Part shown: positions 1 to 10,265 of the stretch, piece after piece
Numbering within the stretch: position 1 is the stretch's first letter
How the letters are laid out: every line of letters begins with the position of its first letter
DNA from: an uncultured Bacteroidia bacterium
GTDB taxonomy: Bacteria; Bacteroidota; Bacteroidia; Bacteroidales; F082
Length of the DNA: 64,000 nt
Reading direction: 5' to 3'
Assembly: GCA_902799345.1 (NCBI GenBank)
Contig: CADBZW010000003.1
Location: forward strand, 88,300 to 152,299
Made by a program: the position numbers and the translations under genes
Notes under the pieces: generated by a model
Told to the model about the DNA's origin: nothing
Databases searched by the model: none
The model's input: the letters and a program-made list of their open reading frames with translations, nothing else

Positions 1-1163
1 TTGAAGCGCAAGGTGTTTTCCAAGGGGTTGCTGCCGTAAACATGTCCCACAGGAATCAAGTAGGAGACATCGAGGCCAAACACATTGTACTTCAATGCGG
101 CGCCTACGGTAACATATCTACGGCCACCCTTCAAATTAGGCTCGTTGAAGAAGCCCGCACGCACGGCAAAGATGTTGTTGTACCAATACTCGATACCGAG
201 ACCGACATTGATCTCGCAAATTTCTTCGTAGAACTTTCCAATAGGTTTATAAGGTGCAGTTTCACCTTGATAGGCCTCATTATACGAATAGCCAGGAGCG
301 TCATAGAAGGATTGGATGATACCCGTCACGACGGCCACGTCGTTATCCATACCATATAGAATCGAGTCTGTTCCAGGGTATCTAATAGGCGGTGTAGGCA
401 CCAAAAGCTTGGTGAGGTCGAACGTGAAGCCCAAAGTGTTGTACTCGTCCAATTCAAAGTTCATTCCTGCTCCAACACGCAGCGTCGTCGGGATGAAATC
501 GCGGCGGACAGAACCCGTATTATAGTTGACCTTACTACCAATGTTGGTGATAGACACGCCCCACATGACATCGGCATCCACAGTCTTGAGTTCTACCGGA
601 CGCTTATAGTACAAACCGATGTCGGCAGCCACAGAAATACCCGCACGAGCGTTGTCGGCCTGGTTTTGGATCAGGTTGGAATAGATGAAACGACCTGCCA
701 CGGCACCAGAGAGATAGTCGCCCAACATACGAGAATAGGTGGCGTCGATGGCCCATTCATTCGGGTTATACACACCCAACTCCTGGTTGTTTTGGTCTCT
801 AAAATCCACTTTACCGGCACTGAAATAGCGTAAAGACATGGCCACTGCAGAGCGGTCGTTGATCTTATAGGCGGCGGTGAGATAGGCCAGGTTCATGTCG
901 GGAACGAGGTTTCTCAACCACGGGCTGTAGCCCAAACCGACCGCCAGTCTATTTTCCAAAAACACATATTTGGCGGGGTTGTAGTGCATGGAATACACAT
1001 CGGGCGTCGTGGCAACGCCACAATCTCCCATAGAGCCTCCCCTAGAGTCAGGGTTGATGGAGACGAACGGGACCGCCGTAGTAATCACGTTGGGGGAATT
1101 CTGTGCATACGATGTAGCCGCAACCAACATCAGCGCGGCAAAAAGAAGCTTCTTGATTTTCAT
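1..1163 (-). CDS. porV: PorV (LptO) T9SS outer-membrane protein, partial at left edge
   Basis: PorV is an outer-membrane beta-barrel of the type IX secretion system; it shuttles cargo from the translocon to the PorU sortase. The frame starts at the ATG whose complement is 1161-1163, opens with a signal peptide (MKIKKLLFAALMLVAATSYA, then Q) and stays open to the window edge, about 387 codons. After the signal come NSPNVITTAVPFVSINPDSR and GGSMGDCGVA, followed by NPAKY, typical of PorV/PorQ-type FadL-like barrels. It lies 114 bp downstream of the second porU-like gene on the same strand and has its own TAnnTTTG element at 1188-1195. The C-terminus is outside the window. PorV rather than PorQ is inferred from length and the porU/gldJ neighbourhood. 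Confidence 0.88.
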   Translation of the reverse strand, partial: MKIKKLLFAALMLVAATSYAQNSPNVITTAVPFVSINPDSRGGSMGDCGVATTPDVYSMHYNPAKYVFLENRLAVGLGYSPWLRNLVPDMNLAYLTAAYKINDRSAVAMSLRYFSAGKVDFRDQNNQELGVYNPNEWAIDATYSRMLGDYLSGAVAGRFIYSNLIQNQADNARAGISVAADIGLYYKRPVELKTVDADVMWGVSITNIGSKVNYNTGSVRRDFIPTTLRVGAGMNFELDEYNTLGFTFDLTKLLVPTPPIRYPGTDSILYGMDNDVAVVTGIIQSFYDAPGYSYNEAYQGETAPYKPIGKFYEEICEINVGLGIEYWYNNIFAVRAGFFNEPNLKGGRRYVTVGAALKYNVFGLDVSYLIPVGHVYGSNPLENTLRF

Positions 1164-1187
1164 ATCCAGTTCTTGTGTTAGAAATTG

Positions 1188-1195
1188 CAAAAATA
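1188..1195 (-). promoter_or_regulatory. -7 promoter element of porV
   Basis: On the minus strand this reads TATTTTTG, matching the Bacteroidota -7 consensus TAnnTTTG, 24 nt before the porV ATG. No clear TTTG -33 element is visible. Confidence 0.55.
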
Positions 1196-1242
1196 ACGAT
1201 AATTGAAATAGCTTATTGTATAGGCTTAAAAATTTATTTTTT

Positions 1243-1277: not shown

Positions 1278-4200
1278 TCAGCGCGAGATGACCAGGCGTT
1301 GGCAGACGGTACGGAAGAAGCCATTCCCATCAGTCAGCGTGAGTCGATAGATATATATACCTGATAACAAAGGACTTCCGCCGGAATTACAGCCATTCCA
1401 AACGATGGGTTCGATGACGCCATTGGTGGAGCTTACTCTCTTCTGCAGCTCTTGCACCTTACGTCCCATGATGTCGAAAATCTCGATGTTCACGTCGAAA
1501 TCACCATCCTCGCCAACATGGGTCAAGGTGATGCGTGTTTCATCGGCGAAGGGATTGGGATAGTTATACACCTGCGAGAGGAACAAGTCGTCGTCGACGA
1601 CAAACCACAGCATGGCTTCGGAGGCGTTGTTTTGCGTGTCCCAGGCCTTGAGTTTGAACTCGTATGTGCCGGGTTCGAGGTCAGCAACGGGGATGGTGAT
1701 GCGGCCACGTCGGAAGTCGTTGAGTGCAGGCTCGAAGCGGTCGTTCAAGACGAGGCTGTTGTATGCCTGTAGGTTGCTGCTCATGACGATGTCGCGGCCC
1801 AGGCTGTAGTCGTAGTGATAGATGCCTTGTGCGTCATAGAGGTCAGCATACAGCATGCCGCCTTGGCGGTCAACGTGCTCACCGTTCCCGAAGTCGGGCG
1901 TGTTCCAATAGAAATCGATGTTAGGCCCTTGGTTGTCGGCCACGGCAGCCGGGTCGGTTCCGCCCAAGTTCAGCAGGTCGTATTTGCCCATGGCATCGAC
2001 GTTTCTAATAGAGTCGTAGGCATAGAAGCTGAAGCGTGGCCTACCGACTTCCATCTTGATGTCCTTCGGTACCTGGAATGCGGCATTAAATCTACCGTTT
2101 TTCACCTCTACCCTTCCGTGATACAGCACATCCTTATGATAGTAGACATCGGTGGTATTGGTGGAATACTTCACTCTCATCTTGGTCTTCTTGTCGAAGA
2201 ACTTCAGCCACAACTCACCGTTGAAATGGATGTCGGGTTCTCCGCTTGGCGTCAAGACCTCGCCCTCCAAGGACACCATGCTCATGGAATGGAGCTCCAC
2301 CGTGCCGTCCTCAGCATCTACTCCGTTGATCCTTGACACGCTGATGTGGTTGGTGGGAAGAGCAAAACGCAGGGCAGGGTCGCCCAAGAACAAAAACGAG
2401 ATGTTCTTGCTTTCCATAGGTGTGACTACCGTGTAGTTTCCCGGATCGATTTTGGCCATTCTCACTATGTCGCCAAAGCGCATCGGGAGGCCGTCTCTTT
2501 CCCTTTGGTAGAGCACACGCACCAATGCCTTGCCTAACTTCTCATTATTATAGCCTTGCGTCGGACGGCAAGCCGTAAGCAGGGCCACCGTGCCGCCTTC
2601 GGGATTGAGGAACAACTGCTCACCTGCCGATACCAGCAATGGATTGTCATATTTGGTGAACTCACAAGTCGCCGTAAAGACAAATGGCACCTTGTCGTAG
2701 TTTCTCAGCGCGTTGATGTCGGAAACGGTGAAGACATTTTCGCCCGTCAGGCCCTTCACGCCGCCATGACCCGTGTAGAGTATCGCCAAGGCACCATCGG
2801 CGAAGGTCCGCATCACATCATCGTGCGCGCCAGGGTTCTCCACACCCGAGCTGGTGTTGACCACAGGATAAGCACCGCAATACACCTTCTCCGTCGTCAA
2901 TCCGGGGCACAGTGTATCCGTCATCCTGAAATACTCCTCGCTGTTCTTGATATAAGACCACTGTTCGTCATCGGCAAACAACAGAAGATTGGTCTTCCAG
3001 TCGCCATGGACGGTTGCGAGGTCGTTATAATGCTTGATTTTACCCAATATTGTCTCGGCTTCTTCCACTGTCGACACAGAGATTCTACCGATGCCCAAAT
3101 CCACCATGCCTTCGCTGTTGGTGCCTTCGTTGTCGTCCATCAGACCGAAGTAGTCGTCGGTGCAAAAGCTCAGTTCATATTCAGGTTTGTCCAAGGTCTC
3201 ATAGCAAGGCACGAAGTTATGTCCTACGCCTTTGATGTTTCGGAAATCGAACGAGGCCCTGCCAAACAAGGTAAGATATTTGAGGTTACCCCCACTACGA
3301 AGATACACCATACGCACGAAGTCTCGGATGCCAGTGGGGTCGGGCACGCCCGTCGAGAACTCATTGTAAATCTCGTTGACGTCAACGACGACACTATGCA
3401 ATCCGTCCAACGCGGCATGATAATCGGCCAAAGCCTGAGCCTGCTCCCTGAAGACCGAAGAGGTCAGTATCAGCATGTCAGCCTCAGCAATGGCATGGAC
3501 ATTCTGGTTGGCGATACGTTGCCAATGCTCCACTTCGAGGGCTGCCGACGGATGGAATAGCATATAGCGTTTCTCCACGATTTCGTCGATGGCAAACATC
3601 ATGTTGCTGCCTGTCACGACCACTTCCTGTCTTATTGGGTTCATGGGTTCTGTTACATCCCACAATATGTAGTCGGCACTGGAGTTTTGAATCCAGATGG
3701 TACTCGCTCCATATCCAAACTGGCTCATCATCAACCTGAACGGAAACAAATGGCCCACGCGCTTCAACTGGCGCCAGCCATAAAGTTCCACATAATCAAG
3801 GAACAGCATTGCCGAGGTGTTGTTGCGGATGCTCAAGTTGAACGTCAAGTTATCAGACTCGACCGCCACCTGCGTGTCGATGACAGAGGCTTTAGCATAG
3901 TTGTTTTCGCCCGGTTTCGCAATGGTAACGCCATTGGCGATGTGGGCATCATTAATCCATGCGTCATATTTCATGGCCTCGGTGTGACGGCCATAAACAC
4001 GGGATTTCACTTTCACCGGTTCGGTCTTCACTAGATTGGGCATATAAAACTGCAACGACAGCAAGGAATCCTCCTTCGAGACCGTCTCTCCAAACCAGTT
4101 CTGGCCTATGTTATAGGGCGAGAACAGCTCCTCTTCGTGCCATACGCAGTCAAGGTATTCTGAGATCACCGTAGTGGTGCTTTCCACATCGAGCGTGGCC

Positions 4201-4682
4201 TTCTCTCCCACCCTTAAGCCATCCTGTCCGCTGTCGACACAAAGATAATAATAGGTGGTGTCGGTGTAATAGTTACGTTCGCGGATGTAAGTGTTCAAGT
4301 TGTTGGCCGCCTTCCAGCGCGTAGGTTCCTGGCCATAAAACAGCACCACATCTTGACGATCAAAGATTCCGTCCTCAGCACCTTCCACAACGATAGCCAT
4401 CTCGGTCAAGTCGTCGGGACGGGCTTTTGAGTTCTTTTCTGGCAAGGCGCCCGAAGGGTTACCAAAAACCCTGATCTGATTGGGGTTCAATGCACCCATG
4501 TTGACGCCCATGGCCTGCAAGGTGGAATAGTCCAACTTGTAGATGCCTTCTTCAGTGACCGACAGGCGATACCAAGTGTGGTCGCTCAACACGGAATGAT
4601 AGGTGTTGTCCTGGGCCGTGCCTGCCTTGAACGACAAGACAAGCGCTACAGCGAGGATGATTTTCGATATGCTATTTTTCAT
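1278..4682 (-). CDS. PorU-like C25 (gingipain-family) peptidase, second tandem copy
   Basis: A 1134-residue exported protein (MKNSISKIILAVALVLSFKA then GTAQ) homologous in layout to the gene immediately upstream. PorU is the T9SS C-terminal signal peptidase/sortase on the cell surface. The C25 catalytic pair is present: His639 in YTGHGG and Cys673 in TATCEF. The C-terminus is a FlgD/T9SS-sorting-like beta domain (NYPNPFADETRI ... IFDIMGRKV ... LLSGIYIYRL). It lacks the roughly 130-residue N-terminal prodomain-like segment of its neighbour; its first recognisable block (TWYRLSVTEEGIYKLDY) aligns with WYKVGLPETGIYKLTY of the larger protein. Only 7 bp separate the two genes, so they are probably co-transcribed. 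It may be a second sortase with other specificity, or a PorU-derived surface peptidase; the sequence does not decide. Confidence 0.82.
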   Translation of the reverse strand: MKNSISKIILAVALVLSFKAGTAQDNTYHSVLSDHTWYRLSVTEEGIYKLDYSTLQAMGVNMGALNPNQIRVFGNPSGALPEKNSKARPDDLTEMAIVVEGAEDGIFDRQDVVLFYGQEPTRWKAANNLNTYIRERNYYTDTTYYYLCVDSGQDGLRVGEKATLDVESTTTVISEYLDCVWHEEELFSPYNIGQNWFGETVSKEDSLLSLQFYMPNLVKTEPVKVKSRVYGRHTEAMKYDAWINDAHIANGVTIAKPGENNYAKASVIDTQVAVESDNLTFNLSIRNNTSAMLFLDYVELYGWRQLKRVGHLFPFRLMMSQFGYGASTIWIQNSSADYILWDVTEPMNPIRQEVVVTGSNMMFAIDEIVEKRYMLFHPSAALEVEHWQRIANQNVHAIAEADMLILTSSVFREQAQALADYHAALDGLHSVVVDVNEIYNEFSTGVPDPTGIRDFVRMVYLRSGGNLKYLTLFGRASFDFRNIKGVGHNFVPCYETLDKPEYELSFCTDDYFGLMDDNEGTNSEGMVDLGIGRISVSTVEEAETILGKIKHYNDLATVHGDWKTNLLLFADDEQWSYIKNSEEYFRMTDTLCPGLTTEKVYCGAYPVVNTSSGVENPGAHDDVMRTFADGALAILYTGHGGVKGLTGENVFTVSDINALRNYDKVPFVFTATCEFTKYDNPLLVSAGEQLFLNPEGGTVALLTACRPTQGYNNEKLGKALVRVLYQRERDGLPMRFGDIVRMAKIDPGNYTVVTPMESKNISFLFLGDPALRFALPTNHISVSRINGVDAEDGTVELHSMSMVSLEGEVLTPSGEPDIHFNGELWLKFFDKKTKMRVKYSTNTTDVYYHKDVLYHGRVEVKNGRFNAAFQVPKDIKMEVGRPRFSFYAYDSIRNVDAMGKYDLLNLGGTDPAAVADNQGPNIDFYWNTPDFGNGEHVDRQGGMLYADLYDAQGIYHYDYSLGRDIVMSSNLQAYNSLVLNDRFEPALNDFRRGRITIPVADLEPGTYEFKLKAWDTQNNASEAMLWFVVDDDLFLSQVYNYPNPFADETRITLTHVGEDGDFDVNIEIFDIMGRKVQELQKRVSSTNGVIEPIVWNGCNSGGSPLLSGIYIYRLTLTDGNGFFRTVCQRLVISR

Positions 4683-4689
4683 ACTTCCT

Positions 4690-7600
4690 TCATTTACTTA
4701 ATACCAATTTCGACACCATCGTGGCCGTCTCACCTTGGTCGTTGGTGGCCACCACACGATACACATAGACACCATTGCGTAAGACTGAGCCTTGGGCGCT
4801 ACGACCATCCCATCTGATGGGGTCGACGCGCGTTGAAGAGCCTGAGACCACTTGTGAAAGCGTGGTCACCCAGCGTCCCATGATATCGAAGATGTAGATG
4901 TCGACTTTCATATTGTTGCCGCCCTGGTTGTGATCGAAGACGAAATGCGTCTCGTCGGTCACAGGGTTGGGGGCGTTAAACAAGTTCTCAATGAGTATGC
5001 CCGAGTTGTTGACCACGGTGAAGTCAATCGTCGCTGTACCCGAGTTATTGTAGATGTCCCATACTTTCAGCGTCAAGGTATAGTCGCCGTCAGGAAGGTC
5101 CTGCATCCTATAGGTGATGACGCCCTTGCCGGGTTCGTCGATTTGTGAGACGAAATACGAGTTAAGGCAATACGAGTTTCGTGTCGGCCCTGTCAAGGTG
5201 GCGATGATGTCGTGACCGATGCCAGCCCCGGTCGTGTTGATGCCACTTTCGTCTTCCACGTAAGCCAGCAGCAACGGGTTTTGTCCCGTCAGACCTCCGT
5301 TCACAAACAAGGTGTCATCGATAAAAAGTCGTACTTCGGGTGGTTCATGGTCTTCGAAGGCTTCATCATAAAAGCCTCCGATGATGAAGCTGTCGCAGTT
5401 GCCGTTGGCATCGATATCGTAATCCGTTGCGTAATAGTTGATTAATCCTCTTCCAAAACGATAGGAAATGTCGCGCGGCACGATGAAGTTCATCGTAAAC
5501 CTGCCGTCCTTGACATCGGTCTTACCATTGAAAATCACGCTGTTGCGTAACTTAAAGTTAATAACACCAGTTGCTGTACCACGGGTAGAGAGGTCGGCTT
5601 CCTTGTCGTAAACAATCACGCTCACAACACCGTTGAAATTCGTCGCCACATTGCCAGCGAAGTCCTTGACCACGCCCTCGATGGAGACGGGCTGCAAAGC
5701 GCTGATGGTGTCAAGGTAGACGGGGTTGACCTGCCAAGTCGAGTCGTTGATTTGGATGGAATCCATGACATAACCAGGGTATTGTCCGTTGATGCTCAGC
5801 GTCTCCACTTTCCATTTCGGGTAGTTCAGACGCAGGGCTGGGTCGCCGAAGAAGACATAGCGTTTCTCCACCACGCTGCCATTGGTCTTGGCCATGCGGT
5901 AGACGTCGCCCAAACGATAGTGCTCGCCGCCATAGATGCGGAACAGGTTTTTGTAGACACCCTTGTTGAATTCCAGGTTATGGTTGCCATGCGTCACCCT
6001 CGAAGTGGTGAACATGGCGATCATGCCACCGTATTGGTTGAGGAAAGCATACTCGCCCAAGGAGGTACGCAAGTGGTCGTCGAAGCGGCTGAACTCACAG
6101 GTACCTGTAATCATCAGCGGATACATCGGGGCGTTACGCCACGAGTCGACGTCTTTCCTTTGCAGGATTTTCTCCTCCGCCAGCTGCACCTCGCCGCCAT
6201 GACCCGTATAGTTGAGCACCAGCGTGCCTTTCTCCATGCGGCTGTTGATGGCGGCATTCACTTCGGGGCAGACCTCGCCACCAGGTGCACTGACTTGCTC
6301 GTAGGCATCCAGATAAATCTTGTCGACCACCACGCCTTCGCCGCCCACGCTAGGCAGCATGGCAGCCATTTCCTCTGCTGAATTCACGAAGCCCGCTTCG
6401 TCGTCGGTGAAGAAAGTCACCGCGTTGCGCCAAGGCTGCATCGTGGTTTCGTCTTTCACGATGTAACGTTCGATCTTATCCACCATCTGTGTGGCTTGTT
6501 CCAAGGTCTGCACTGGGAATCGACCGATGCCAATGTCAGCCAATGAACTACCGATGGAGCCTTCTGCCTCGTCCATGAAGCCAAAATAATCGTCGGTGAC
6601 AAAAGTCTCCGTCATGCAAAGCGAACTCACAGACTCGTACGTAGGCACAAAGTCAACCACGGCGGTGCGGTTCTTGTAATCGTATGAGCAGTCGCCGAGC
6701 AGCAGGAGGTACTTGATTTTGCGGCCGGGATTGCTGTCGAGATAAAGCATACGGCAGAAGTCACGGATGGCGGAAATGTCTTTGGCGCCACAGGAAAACT
6801 CGTTATAAATCATTTCCGGCGTGGTGATAAATACGTCCAAGTCGGGGTCGAGGCTGTTGTGAATGGCTTTCAAACGCTCGGCCTGGGTCATGAATCCGTC
6901 GTAGGTCACAATGACAAAGTCGACATCGCGGATGCCATGCAGGTTCTGGTTATCGACCTGACCAAACATCTTAGCCGTGCAATAAGAGCTGCCATTGAAG
7001 GCAACAAATTCGTTGTCAACATCTCCATTCACCTTAAAACTGAATGTGTTACCACTCAGCTGTCCTTTCATGACAGAAGGAGCGACAGGGTCAGTGACGT
7101 TCCACACTTGCACCTGCTGCGAGGCGTTGGACAATTGGTATTGGTACACCTTGTTATTAATAGAGGCTTCAGGATTGCGGAACATCATCTGGCTGCCCGT
7201 GAACTTGAGGTTGCGCCAAGCGTTGACCGTGATATAATCCACATAGCCTTCGGATGTGCCTGCGCCATAGGCATTGTGTTTGAGCGTGACACGCAACGTC
7301 TCCGACGTTGGATTTGCCGACACCCAGCCGCCCACGTCGTAGCCATAGTAATAATCCGAGGTATAGACCGGAATGCTATAAGTCGCTTTCTTGACATTGT
7401 CGAGCAAGACGTCGAAGGAAGCATTTTGTATGTTTCTGCCAGCCAAAGCCGTGTTAACCTTGCAGGGTTTCGTCGTCACCACATTGGGGAAATTGAAATC
7501 AAAATTCTTCGACGAGGTCGAGTCCATCTTGTCGCCATAATAGGTACGTCCCACGTGGAACAAGCTGAATTCATCCAACTCATGCACCTGATGGTCAATG

Positions 7601-8523
7601 AATTGTGAAACTGTTTCATTGGCAGTCAGTGACTGGTTGTTGGTCTCGCTGATACGTTTGCCTTGTCCCTTCCCAGTGACCACAAAAGCGTAGGCATAAT
7701 CATCGTATGGGTTCTGGCCATGGACATATGCTGTCTTAGAGGCATCATACTTCCAACACACTGGGCCTCGACCATAGAACAGGATATAGTCACCATTGTC
7801 GAACTTGCCGTCCGACTCGCCATAGACATAGATAGGAAGCTCCACCAAGTCGTCATGGCGTGCCTCACTATTCATCTCGGGCAGCACTCCTCCACCGTTG
7901 TGATAGATGCGAATTTGACGAGGGTCGACATGGGCGACATCGACACCCAAATTCGACAAATCGGCATAGGTCAACTTGTAAATGCCCGTTTCGGGAAGAC
8001 CGACTTTGTACCAATCTCCCGAGGCCATCGCAGAGCGGTCCGCAAACGATGGATTAGATTTTTGTGCCTCAAAATCAGCGGCTAACGTCACGGAAAGTGT
8101 GGCTGAAACCAATTTCTCAACCTTACCCCCTTGCTGACGGAAAGGCACGATGCGCACACTTAAAAACGACTCGTCGCGTGAGCGAATCGGAATAGCGGTC
8201 ACCTCAAAATCCTGTGCAACAGAAAACGCCTTCGCCAATTGCATTTCCTCAGGTGCCAGCGGAGCCGTCACCATCTTGTCCAACACCACTTTAGCGTCGA
8301 CATGGTGGTCAAAGATGGGGAAAGACTGGTAGAACACAGGCATAGCTCCCACATATTCCGCCGACTGCAAAGAAATATAAAACGAGGTGTCATAGTCGTT
8401 TCTTTCTTCCATCAGGCCATTCCATTGCAGGCGAATGGGATACGAGCTGGTAATCTGAGCCATCGAGATGCAGGCCATTCCCAGTACAAAAACGACTAAT
8501 AACAAGAATTTATTTATGCGCAT
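4690..8523 (-). CDS. porU: PorU T9SS C-terminal signal peptidase / sortase
   Basis: A 1277-residue exported C25-family protein (signal MRINKFLLLVVFVLGMACIS followed by MAQ). PorU removes the C-terminal sorting domain of T9SS cargo and attaches cargo to anionic LPS in Porphyromonas. Residues about 20-160 form a prodomain-like N-terminal region, followed by a WYKVGLPETGIYKLTY block, the caspase-like C25 domain with His775 (YTGHGG) and Cys809 (TGTCEF), then beta domains and a C-terminal FlgD-like module (NAPNPVTDETHFVFD ... NGVYVYRVV). It is the more complete of the two tandem copies and heads the operon, so it is the likelier PorU orthologue. Neighbours porV and gldJ match the conserved Bacteroidota cluster. 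Confidence 0.87.
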   Translation of the reverse strand: MRINKFLLLVVFVLGMACISMAQITSSYPIRLQWNGLMEERNDYDTSFYISLQSAEYVGAMPVFYQSFPIFDHHVDAKVVLDKMVTAPLAPEEMQLAKAFSVAQDFEVTAIPIRSRDESFLSVRIVPFRQQGGKVEKLVSATLSVTLAADFEAQKSNPSFADRSAMASGDWYKVGLPETGIYKLTYADLSNLGVDVAHVDPRQIRIYHNGGGVLPEMNSEARHDDLVELPIYVYGESDGKFDNGDYILFYGRGPVCWKYDASKTAYVHGQNPYDDYAYAFVVTGKGQGKRISETNNQSLTANETVSQFIDHQVHELDEFSLFHVGRTYYGDKMDSTSSKNFDFNFPNVVTTKPCKVNTALAGRNIQNASFDVLLDNVKKATYSIPVYTSDYYYGYDVGGWVSANPTSETLRVTLKHNAYGAGTSEGYVDYITVNAWRNLKFTGSQMMFRNPEASINNKVYQYQLSNASQQVQVWNVTDPVAPSVMKGQLSGNTFSFKVNGDVDNEFVAFNGSSYCTAKMFGQVDNQNLHGIRDVDFVIVTYDGFMTQAERLKAIHNSLDPDLDVFITTPEMIYNEFSCGAKDISAIRDFCRMLYLDSNPGRKIKYLLLLGDCSYDYKNRTAVVDFVPTYESVSSLCMTETFVTDDYFGFMDEAEGSIGSSLADIGIGRFPVQTLEQATQMVDKIERYIVKDETTMQPWRNAVTFFTDDEAGFVNSAEEMAAMLPSVGGEGVVVDKIYLDAYEQVSAPGGEVCPEVNAAINSRMEKGTLVLNYTGHGGEVQLAEEKILQRKDVDSWRNAPMYPLMITGTCEFSRFDDHLRTSLGEYAFLNQYGGMIAMFTTSRVTHGNHNLEFNKGVYKNLFRIYGGEHYRLGDVYRMAKTNGSVVEKRYVFFGDPALRLNYPKWKVETLSINGQYPGYVMDSIQINDSTWQVNPVYLDTISALQPVSIEGVVKDFAGNVATNFNGVVSVIVYDKEADLSTRGTATGVINFKLRNSVIFNGKTDVKDGRFTMNFIVPRDISYRFGRGLINYYATDYDIDANGNCDSFIIGGFYDEAFEDHEPPEVRLFIDDTLFVNGGLTGQNPLLLAYVEDESGINTTGAGIGHDIIATLTGPTRNSYCLNSYFVSQIDEPGKGVITYRMQDLPDGDYTLTLKVWDIYNNSGTATIDFTVVNNSGILIENLFNAPNPVTDETHFVFDHNQGGNNMKVDIYIFDIMGRWVTTLSQVVSGSSTRVDPIRWDGRSAQGSVLRNGVYVYRVVATNDQGETATMVSKLVLSK

Positions 8524-8774: not shown

Positions 8775-10265
8775 ATGTATAGAAAACAAGGATTTAAGAC
8801 ATTAGCCATCATCGTCTTGGCAGGATTGCTTACCGTTTCGTGCTCCCAAAAGTCCTCTCGTACAACGGGTTGGGCCTACAATGACGCCAACAACGGAGGC
8901 TTTGAAGTCACAGAAATCAACGACCAACAGATTGGTCCCGGTTTGATTGCCATCGAAGGCGGCACCTTCGTCATGGGTGCTACCAACGACAACATCACCT
9001 ATTCTTGGGACAATGCACCTCGTAAGGTGACCGTGCCTACTTTCTTGATTGACCGCACGGAGGTCAGCAACGTGGACTACCGCGAGTACATTTACTGGCT
9101 GAATCGCGTTTATGGCCAGAACTATCCTCAGGTGGTGCGCAATGCCGCTCCCGACACCTTGGTTTGGCGTGACCGTTTGTCCTACAACGAGCCCATGGTG
9201 GAGATTTACTTCCGTCATCCTTCATACAATGACTATCCGGTGGTTGGCGTGACATGGGTGCAAGCCCAAGACTATTGCGCTTGGCGTACCGACCGTGTCA
9301 ATGAGTTGATGCTTATCGAAGCCGGCATCCTTGATTGGGATCCTTCACAGCAGGACGAAGAGAACTTCAACACCGACGCTTATCTGGCTGGTCAGTACAC
9401 TGGCAAGGTGAAGAATGGCAAGAAAGACCTCTCGAAAGGTGGCGATGGCATGCGTAACGTCAGAATGGACGATGGCATCCTCCTTCCCTCCTATCGTCTT
9501 CCCACGGAAGCTGAATGGGAATATGCCGCTGTTGGCCTGGTGGGTAACACCAGCAACGAACTCGTCAGCGAGCGTAAGGTGTATCCTTGGAGCGGTGAAG
9601 GCTTGCGTACCGACAGCAAGAGATACATGGGTAGCTTCATGGGCAACTTCAAGAAAGGTCCTGGTGACTACATGGGTGTCGCCGGTCACTTGAACGATGG
9701 TGCCGCTCTGCCCGCCCCCGTTGGTTCTTACTGGCCCAACGACTACGGCCTGTATAACATGGCTGGTAACGTTGCCGAATGGTGCCAAGATGTCTATCGT
9801 CCCTTGTCACATGAAGATGTTGCCGACTACAGCCCCTTCCGTGGTAACGTGTTTACCCGCAAGGCCGTCGACGACGAAGGCTTCCTGTTGCAGAAAGACT
9901 CCCTCGGTCGTATCCGCAGAGAACTCATCCCTCAAGAAGAAGCTTCCAAGCGTCAGAACTACCGCACTGCCTTTAACTCCAACTATGGCGACGGTGACTA
10001 CATGTCAGCCATCCGTAACCGCTGGAACGACCCGCAAGAAGACCAAAGCACCTTCACAAGAGAGATGTACGACTATGCCACCAACGACACCCCTGGTACC
10101 ACTCTCATCAACGACGAATCGAGAGTGTACAAAGGCGGCTCATGGGCAGACCTTCCTTACTACCTGAGCCCTGGCACACGCCGTTACCTCAACCAGAACC
10201 AGTCCGCCTCCACAATCGGCTTCCGCTGCGCGATGAACAAGGTTGGAAGCTCCTTTGCAAAGTAA
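8775..10265 (+). CDS. gldJ: GldJ T9SS lipoprotein (FGE-sulfatase fold)
   Basis: GldJ is an outer-membrane-associated lipoprotein of the T9SS/gliding machinery related to GldK/PorK. The 496-residue protein has a lipobox (LLTVSC, Cys23) and a formylglycine-generating-enzyme-like domain: IEGGTFVMGATNDN near 59-72, FLIDRTEVSNVDYREYIYW, LPTEAEWEYAAVG, YNMAGNVAEWCQDVY, and a C-terminal SRVYKGGSWADLPYYL ... GFRCAMN. Start ATG 8775 gives a proper lipoprotein signal. GldK is the main alternative; proximity to porU, porV and murF favours GldJ, because gldJ sits in that cluster in flavobacteria. A strong terminator follows at 10291-10323. Confidence 0.85.
   Translation: MYRKQGFKTLAIIVLAGLLTVSCSQKSSRTTGWAYNDANNGGFEVTEINDQQIGPGLIAIEGGTFVMGATNDNITYSWDNAPRKVTVPTFLIDRTEVSNVDYREYIYWLNRVYGQNYPQVVRNAAPDTLVWRDRLSYNEPMVEIYFRHPSYNDYPVVGVTWVQAQDYCAWRTDRVNELMLIEAGILDWDPSQQDEENFNTDAYLAGQYTGKVKNGKKDLSKGGDGMRNVRMDDGILLPSYRLPTEAEWEYAAVGLVGNTSNELVSERKVYPWSGEGLRTDSKRYMGSFMGNFKKGPGDYMGVAGHLNDGAALPAPVGSYWPNDYGLYNMAGNVAEWCQDVYRPLSHEDVADYSPFRGNVFTRKAVDDEGFLLQKDSLGRIRRELIPQEEASKRQNYRTAFNSNYGDGDYMSAIRNRWNDPQEDQSTFTREMYDYATNDTPGTTLINDESRVYKGGSWADLPYYLSPGTRRYLNQNQSASTIGFRCAMNKVGSSFAK

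Follow-up and report, generated by a model that had tools for sequence, protein, structure and literature searches.

Tandem PorU-type sortase genes in the gldJ-porV cluster of an uncultured member of the Bacteroidales

We report that, in an uncultured member of the Bacteroidales, the sortase of the type IX secretion system (T9SS) is represented by a tandem pair of genes, both of whose products are supported, by profile models, synteny and the catalytic dyad, as PorU-type enzymes and not as gingipain-like cargo. The pair lies in a 64,000-nucleotide stretch of contig CADBZW010000003.1 (assembly GCA_902799345.1, positions 88,300 to 152,299), hereafter the window. The genes porU-1 (1277 amino acids) and porU-2 (1134 amino acids) share a strand and are separated by 7 bp, with a gldJ-like gene divergent from porU-1 and porV downstream of porU-2. 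The reading that we favour, with about as much doubt as confidence, is that of a core sortase joined by an accessory one whose preference for cargo or acceptor differs: the sortase gene would be an old tandem pair within the gldJ / porU-1 - porU-2 - porV cluster, porU-1 would encode the core sortase, and the product of porU-2 would be an accessory sortase, active and quicker to evolve, that relies on the PorV shuttle and PorZ used by PorU-1 and either handles part of the cargo bearing a C-terminal sorting domain (CTD) or works with a different acceptor. From sequence we infer that both enzymes are catalytically active, share partners and differ in specificity; CTD cleavage, transpeptidation to anionic lipopolysaccharide (A-LPS) and a surface location are predicted for both.

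The original prediction for this DNA had described two PorU-like genes of these lengths and spacing, each with an intact dyad and with YTGHGG and TCEF segments, and the open reading frames, the alignment and a rereading of the DNA all bear this out. His775/Cys809 of PorU-1 and His639/Cys673 of PorU-2 share alignment columns, and both dyads align with the YAGHGG...TATCDF segment of an experimentally defined PorU, that of Porphyromonas gingivalis (PDB 6za2); the aligned cysteine is, by our own offset count, C690, and a P. gingivalis porU C690A mutant is described in the portion of PMC5562754 consulted. Both proteins match the T9SS_sortase model NF033707 over its full length (1188.2 bits for PorU-1 and 996.1 for PorU-2, against a cut-off of 420), and they alone in the source genome pass this cut-off, the other C25 proteins scoring at most 46 bits to the same model. 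Each begins, by eye, with a signal-peptide-like stretch and ends in a type A T9SS sorting tail (TIGR04183, 25.3 bits for PorU-1 and 29.3 for PorU-2, cut-off 23), the Pfam tail models remaining below their gathering thresholds in both. It is this tail that had been taken for a C-terminal FlgD-like domain in both proteins, an assignment that we do not retain, since FlgD_ig gives a sub-threshold match in PorU-1 only (21.6 versus 27).

A C25 domain joined to a type A sorting tail is also what a gingipain-like secreted protease would carry, and gingipain entries are found among the PDB matches of PorU-2; that it is such a cargo protein and not a sortase is nevertheless very improbable. This reading is contradicted by the model scores given above, and Propeptide_C25 (PF08126), present in six of six C25 cargos scanned (drawn from ten non-PorU C25 matches in the source genome), is absent from both PorUs and from the isolated porU-1 extension in profile scans. 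PorU-2 also groups with PorUs and adjoins porV; the tree contains no cargo rows, so that its grouping against cargo rests on the model scores. By model, synteny and dyad the short copy is of the PorU type, which speaks against a grouping with gingipain-like cargo, the outcome that the original prediction had named as fatal to it. It is next to inconceivable that PorU-2 belongs to the NCBIfam family called 'PorU2', with which it shares a name and a weak match (NF052324, 174 bits), for that model has a cut-off of 450 bits, and its score for PorU-1 (166 bits) is close to that for PorU-2. Low-scoring matches to the PorU model in other genomes, from frames of approximately 1620-1690 amino acids, may represent that family.

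Within the genus, 43 of 60 genomes gave two PorU matches and 17 gave one (in this set of 60, 27 genomes reach a completeness of 90% or more and have no more than 5% contamination). The two copies lie on one contig in 42 genomes, and at two contig ends in the remaining one, G016. Of the 17 one-copy genomes, 16 have porV immediately after porU, so that the second copy is truly missing there and not hidden in an assembly gap; in G001 the two genes share a contig at a distance of 12.6 kb. Pairs are usual among close relatives without being universal; the original prediction had named equal pairs in all close relatives as an outcome that would refute it. All 28 genus pairs that were read are on the same strand and 15 overlap by 4 nt (e.g. 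L079:8388-8391, the first start codon being taken mechanically), an arrangement consistent with co-expression and translational coupling; porV and gldJ flank 27 of the 28, the exception, L091, being at its contig end.

Across the order, PorU was found in 106 of 119 genomes and two near-complete copies (at least 800 of 1095 model positions) in 28 of the 119, the source genome included; by hand count, 22 of these 28 have both on the same contig. Genomes whose extra copies are only split or partial (G041, G055, G065, G081, G083 and G157) were not counted as two-copy. In a sample of the phylum, in which two candidates were scored per genome and PorU was found in 164 of 247 genomes, there was no other pair, the two-match genomes G206, G357 and G393 each holding complementary pieces of one PorU. 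Apart from the source genome, the sample has just two members of the order, and no PorU was found in either, so that its evidence concerns lineages outside the order. The named relatives are mostly metagenome-assembled genomes of Bacteroidales from the rumen or other parts of the ruminant gut, the nearest being RUG11958, whose porU-2 is 96% identical. Papers on the T9SS speak, in the parts consulted, of one PorU sortase per system (e.g. PMC10202324, PMC5562754); in the corresponding part of PMC4936053 PorU is listed as a component and 'two copies' concerns another gene, and term searches of the text available for PMC5445135 and PMC5831590 returned no paralogue terms. Portions of PMC11285876, PMC8545088, PMC11969387 and PMC12618676 were also consulted. 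We found no account of a duplicated or tandem PorU in the open-access literature searched, a scope that excludes subscription papers and preprints, so that an earlier report is possible.

The history of the pair was examined using 120 regions from chosen genomes, namely every genus genome known at that stage other than that of the window (36 in all), a further 28 two-copy genomes (including G048 and G055) and 48 selected one-copy genomes. After three fragments shorter than 850 amino acids had been dropped, a tree of 175 rows was built from columns without the N-terminal extension, followed by a careful tree of 60 rows. Within the genus, the copy on the gldJ side and that on the porV side fall into separate clades, so that the second copy is indeed, as had been put forward for checking, a clade of its own beside porU-1 and porV. 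The copy-1 and copy-2 trees of the 28 genus pairs have 18 of 25 splits in common (shuffled labels give a mean of 0.17 and a maximum of 2), and this congruence shows that the two clades of the genus have been inherited together. In each of the 17 one-copy genus genomes the gene that is kept is of the copy-1 type: the copy-1 clade holds the eight that are in the tree, together with the nearly whole copy of G016, and the other nine have copy-1-like scores (above 1150 bits, versus at most 1034 for copy 2). It is therefore the porV-side copy that is the accessory one, and a hand count on the 175-row tree, assuming no regain, gives about six losses of it within the genus.

Approximately unbiased (AU) tests could not decide between one old duplication and several in the order. 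Constraining genus copies 1 and 2 to one clade gave a likelihood 2.3 higher than that of the free tree (p 0.55), and constraining all copies from the genus and family f4 to one clade gave a likelihood 17 higher (p 0.725), which means that the free 60-row tree is not the best one; placing 18 copy-2 rows (five genus, two f4 and 11 from other loci) in one clade lowered the likelihood by 1.0 (p 0.498). The pairs of G125 and G037, on the other hand, are sister pairs with support of 100/100 in the 60-row tree, and are clear cases, as judged from this topology, of independent duplication events.

The longer N-terminus of PorU-1 had been read in the original prediction as prodomain-like, and the pair as a duplication with loss of this segment from the second copy. 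The segment probably corresponds to the model 'PorU, long form' (NF052318; 35.2 bits, E 1.2e-8, profile positions 3-140 of 140), at a score just below the cut-off of 40; PorU-2 has no match to this model. In an AlphaFold model of residues 1-545 of PorU-1 (mean predicted local distance difference test score, pLDDT, of 92), strands extend over residues 24-149 and a low-confidence linker lies near 151-160, such that the extension is modelled as an all-beta domain plus linker. The match of PorU-1 to 6za2 begins at residue 154, and the extension therefore lies outside the 6za2 homology; in a fold search with the N-terminal model the body was matched to 6za2, and none of the 50 matches listed was convincing for the extension. 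Its identity as a C25 prodomain did not survive. The first profile match, with a probability of 93.5%, was mostly signal peptide, and without signal peptides the comparison with Propeptide_C25 fell to a probability of 5% (P 0.0078, negative controls 0.084 and 0.41), leaving a faint likeness to the propeptide of the C25 cargos.

Loss of this segment is not tied to the duplication. The extension is present in 92 of 168 scorable rows and changes state 15 times on the 175-row tree by a Fitch count (seven of the 175 rows have no state, and two with over-extended starts were set to short). In the genus it is found on copy 1 of some species and not of others, by hand count of labels it is carried by both copies in 13 of 22 tandem loci outside the genus, and by alignment it is present in five PorUs from the Flavobacteriia.

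The catalytic histidine is conserved in all 175 rows and the cysteine in 174, the exception being a one-copy row, so that the dyad is intact in all 101 rows from tandem copies. Estimates of dN/dS by the method of Nei and Gojobori (NG86) lie between 0.070 and 0.154 for copy 2 (computable for eight of nine species pairs) and between 0.049 and 0.113 for copy 1 (nine of ten); on these values copy 2 is under purifying selection. It is also diverging the faster of the two, with a genus tree of length 11.89 against 7.76 for copy 1 (approximately 1.5-fold) and a higher dN/dS in seven of eight comparisons, the remaining one being lower.

This divergence includes fixed changes near the active site. The residue three positions beyond the catalytic histidine (His+3) is glutamate in 28 of 28 genus copy-1 proteins and never glutamate in the 28 copy-2 proteins, 26 of which have valine. 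His1104 of a GIGHD motif is replaced by arginine or lysine in all 28 genus copy-2 proteins, Pro1083 by glycine in all 28 and Thr1097 by histidine in 27. Elsewhere His1104 is nearly invariant, being kept in all 20 copy-1 rows of the order, in 58 of the 60 rows from one-copy genomes and in five of five Flavobacteriia, and it is kept in 16 of 20 order copy-2 rows; both copy-2 rows of family f4 have lysine at 1104 and lysine at His+3.

These changes bear on the suggestion that the two PorUs have the same activity and are kept for redundancy or dosage, to serve a very large number of CTD cargos. The source genome is indeed a cargo-rich T9SS genome, with at least 80 type A CTD matches among 135 candidates, and there are close pairs elsewhere, that of G125 being 65% identical. 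The window pair, however, is 32.5% identical over 1092 columns, the clades have their own fixed residues and the copies are distinct throughout the genus, and we consider a purely redundant pair unlikely.

PorV and PorZ are not, as a rule, duplicated along with the sortase. Each two-PorU genome of the order, 28 in all and the source genome among them, has exactly one PorV that scores above the NF033710 cut-off, and 27 have one PorZ. This argues against two complete attachment complexes and leaves, in most cases, a single shuttle and a single A-LPS-binding protein for the two sortases. The remaining genome, G037, has two tandem PorZ genes (G037:C20:212649-217296) and its two PorUs are on different contigs. 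Within the genus, a second PorV above the cut-off occurs in eight of 60 genomes, all of which have two PorUs; G014 has no PorV above it, its contig ending inside porU-2. Some members of the genus have a further PorV-like gene roughly 3.5 kb past porV (L048:18248-19459, 275 bits, cut-off 250; also L049, L055, L057, L058, L065 and L069). A second PorV was considered as the partner of the second PorU and set aside as not general, being found in only those eight genomes.

Adjacent sortase genes with single PorV and PorZ could also encode a heteromer, a PorU-1:PorU-2 dimer in the attachment complex in which one subunit blocks or modulates the other. The appeal of this reading is the latency of dimeric PorU in P. 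gingivalis: the title of 6za2 is that of a dimeric latent PorU, a hairpin of one monomer blocks the other according to the part of the review PMC10202324 consulted, and the P. gingivalis attachment complex was concluded, in the part of PMC5562754 consulted, to contain each component in no more than two copies. In 17 of the 60 genus genomes, nonetheless, PorU-2 is missing and PorU-1 is retained, the outcome of the roughly six losses counted above, so that PorU-1 does not always need PorU-2 and the heteromer is not obligate; we regard it as an improbable account of the pair. Quite improbable, in our estimation, is a shared PorV/PorZ platform on which the work is split between covalent anchoring to surface polysaccharide and the release of soluble enzymes, PorU-2 being tuned to hydrolysis or another acceptor by the changed loop beside its catalytic histidine. 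The 2023 review, in the portion consulted, describes as an open question what determines whether a protein is anchored or released (PMC10202324).

Several results weigh against the favoured core and accessory sortases, whose difference in cargo or acceptor is itself putative. A single PorV and a single PorZ are found in most genomes irrespective of the number of PorUs, so that the count shows the lack of a second partner and not sharing. Relaxed constraint could also account for the faster change of copy 2, and dS values above 1 are numerous, which makes the dN/dS estimates rough. Glutamate at His+3 is variable in one-copy PorUs (34 of 60 in the order), so its replacement need not alter function, and the copy 2 of other paired families mostly keeps the ancestral glutamate (18 of 20) and His1104, so that what is seen in the genus does not hold generally. 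Two-copy members of the genus carry more CTD candidates per Mb (p 0.005), a difference not seen inside the subclade in which both states occur (p 0.44); we rejected a link between the second PorU and more CTD cargo as confounded by clade and genome size and dependent on loose candidate counts.

Table 1. Positions in the window of the sortase pair, its landmarks and the flanking genes.
Feature	Position	Strand	Description
porU-1	4690..8523	-	Probable long-form PorU sortase, gldJ-side; phmmer versus 6za2 PorU E 1.6e-131
porU-2	1278..4682	-	Short-form PorU sortase, putative porV-side accessory copy; versus 6za2 E 7.7e-106; AlphaFold pLDDT 91.2, predicted template modelling score (pTM) 0.84
porU-1 N-terminal extension	8050..8454	-	About residues 24-158; modelled all-beta domain and linker; absent from porU-2
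porU-1 active-site stretch	6097..6201	-	His775 to Cys809, including Glu778; translated from DNA
porU-2 active-site stretch	2664..2768	-	His639 to Cys673, including Val642; translated from DNA
porV	3..1190	-	Open at the window edge; NF033710 430 bits, cut-off 250
gldJ-like lipoprotein gene	8775..10265	+	Divergent from the porU pair; TIGR03524 447.2 bits, slightly below the cut-off of 458.2

The first 12 kb of the window (Table 1) are 95.9% identical to RUG11958 (L047). Divergent patches at window positions 1-1200 and 1601-2400, where porV falls to 82-89% and the 3' part of porU-2 to 88% against a background of mostly 95-100% per 400 bp, form a pattern as after local recombination or diversifying change. 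Elsewhere on the contig of the PorU pair, four matches to the C25 peptidase model lie within 8 kb (G000:C3:25723-33483) and are probably a cluster of C25 cargo genes.

The frequent two-sortase arrangement of the Bacteroidales provides natural material for the study of cargo choice and of anchoring versus release, a question that the paired genomes would make testable, and the genus pair is of particular use in that one copy is conserved while the other is fast-evolving and repeatedly lost. It is also a warning for annotation, as 'PorU' in such genomes can mean two paralogues; the separate 'long form' and 'PorU2' models of NCBIfam show that its curators are aware of the variety of PorU.

Among known systems, the PorU of P. 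gingivalis (6za2) is homologous to both window PorUs along nearly the whole chain, with a common aligned dyad, C25 domain and C-terminal sorting tail; it is a short form, as is PorU-2, and its chain has no counterpart of the N-terminal extension, but the window carries two divergent copies. NCBIfam PorU2 shares a PorU-related N-terminal and catalytic region with the window PorUs, both of which lie far below its cut-off. The single long-form PorUs of the Flavobacteriaceae (loci L072-L075; L072 scores 118 bits to NF052318) have the gldJ - porU - porV layout and, by alignment, the extension in common with the window, and differ in having one porU per locus. In the tandem pairs of other Bacteroidales families (e.g. 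L143, L137 and L134), two intact PorU genes are likewise adjacent and upstream of porV, although in these three both copies are of the long form and are 40-51% identical.

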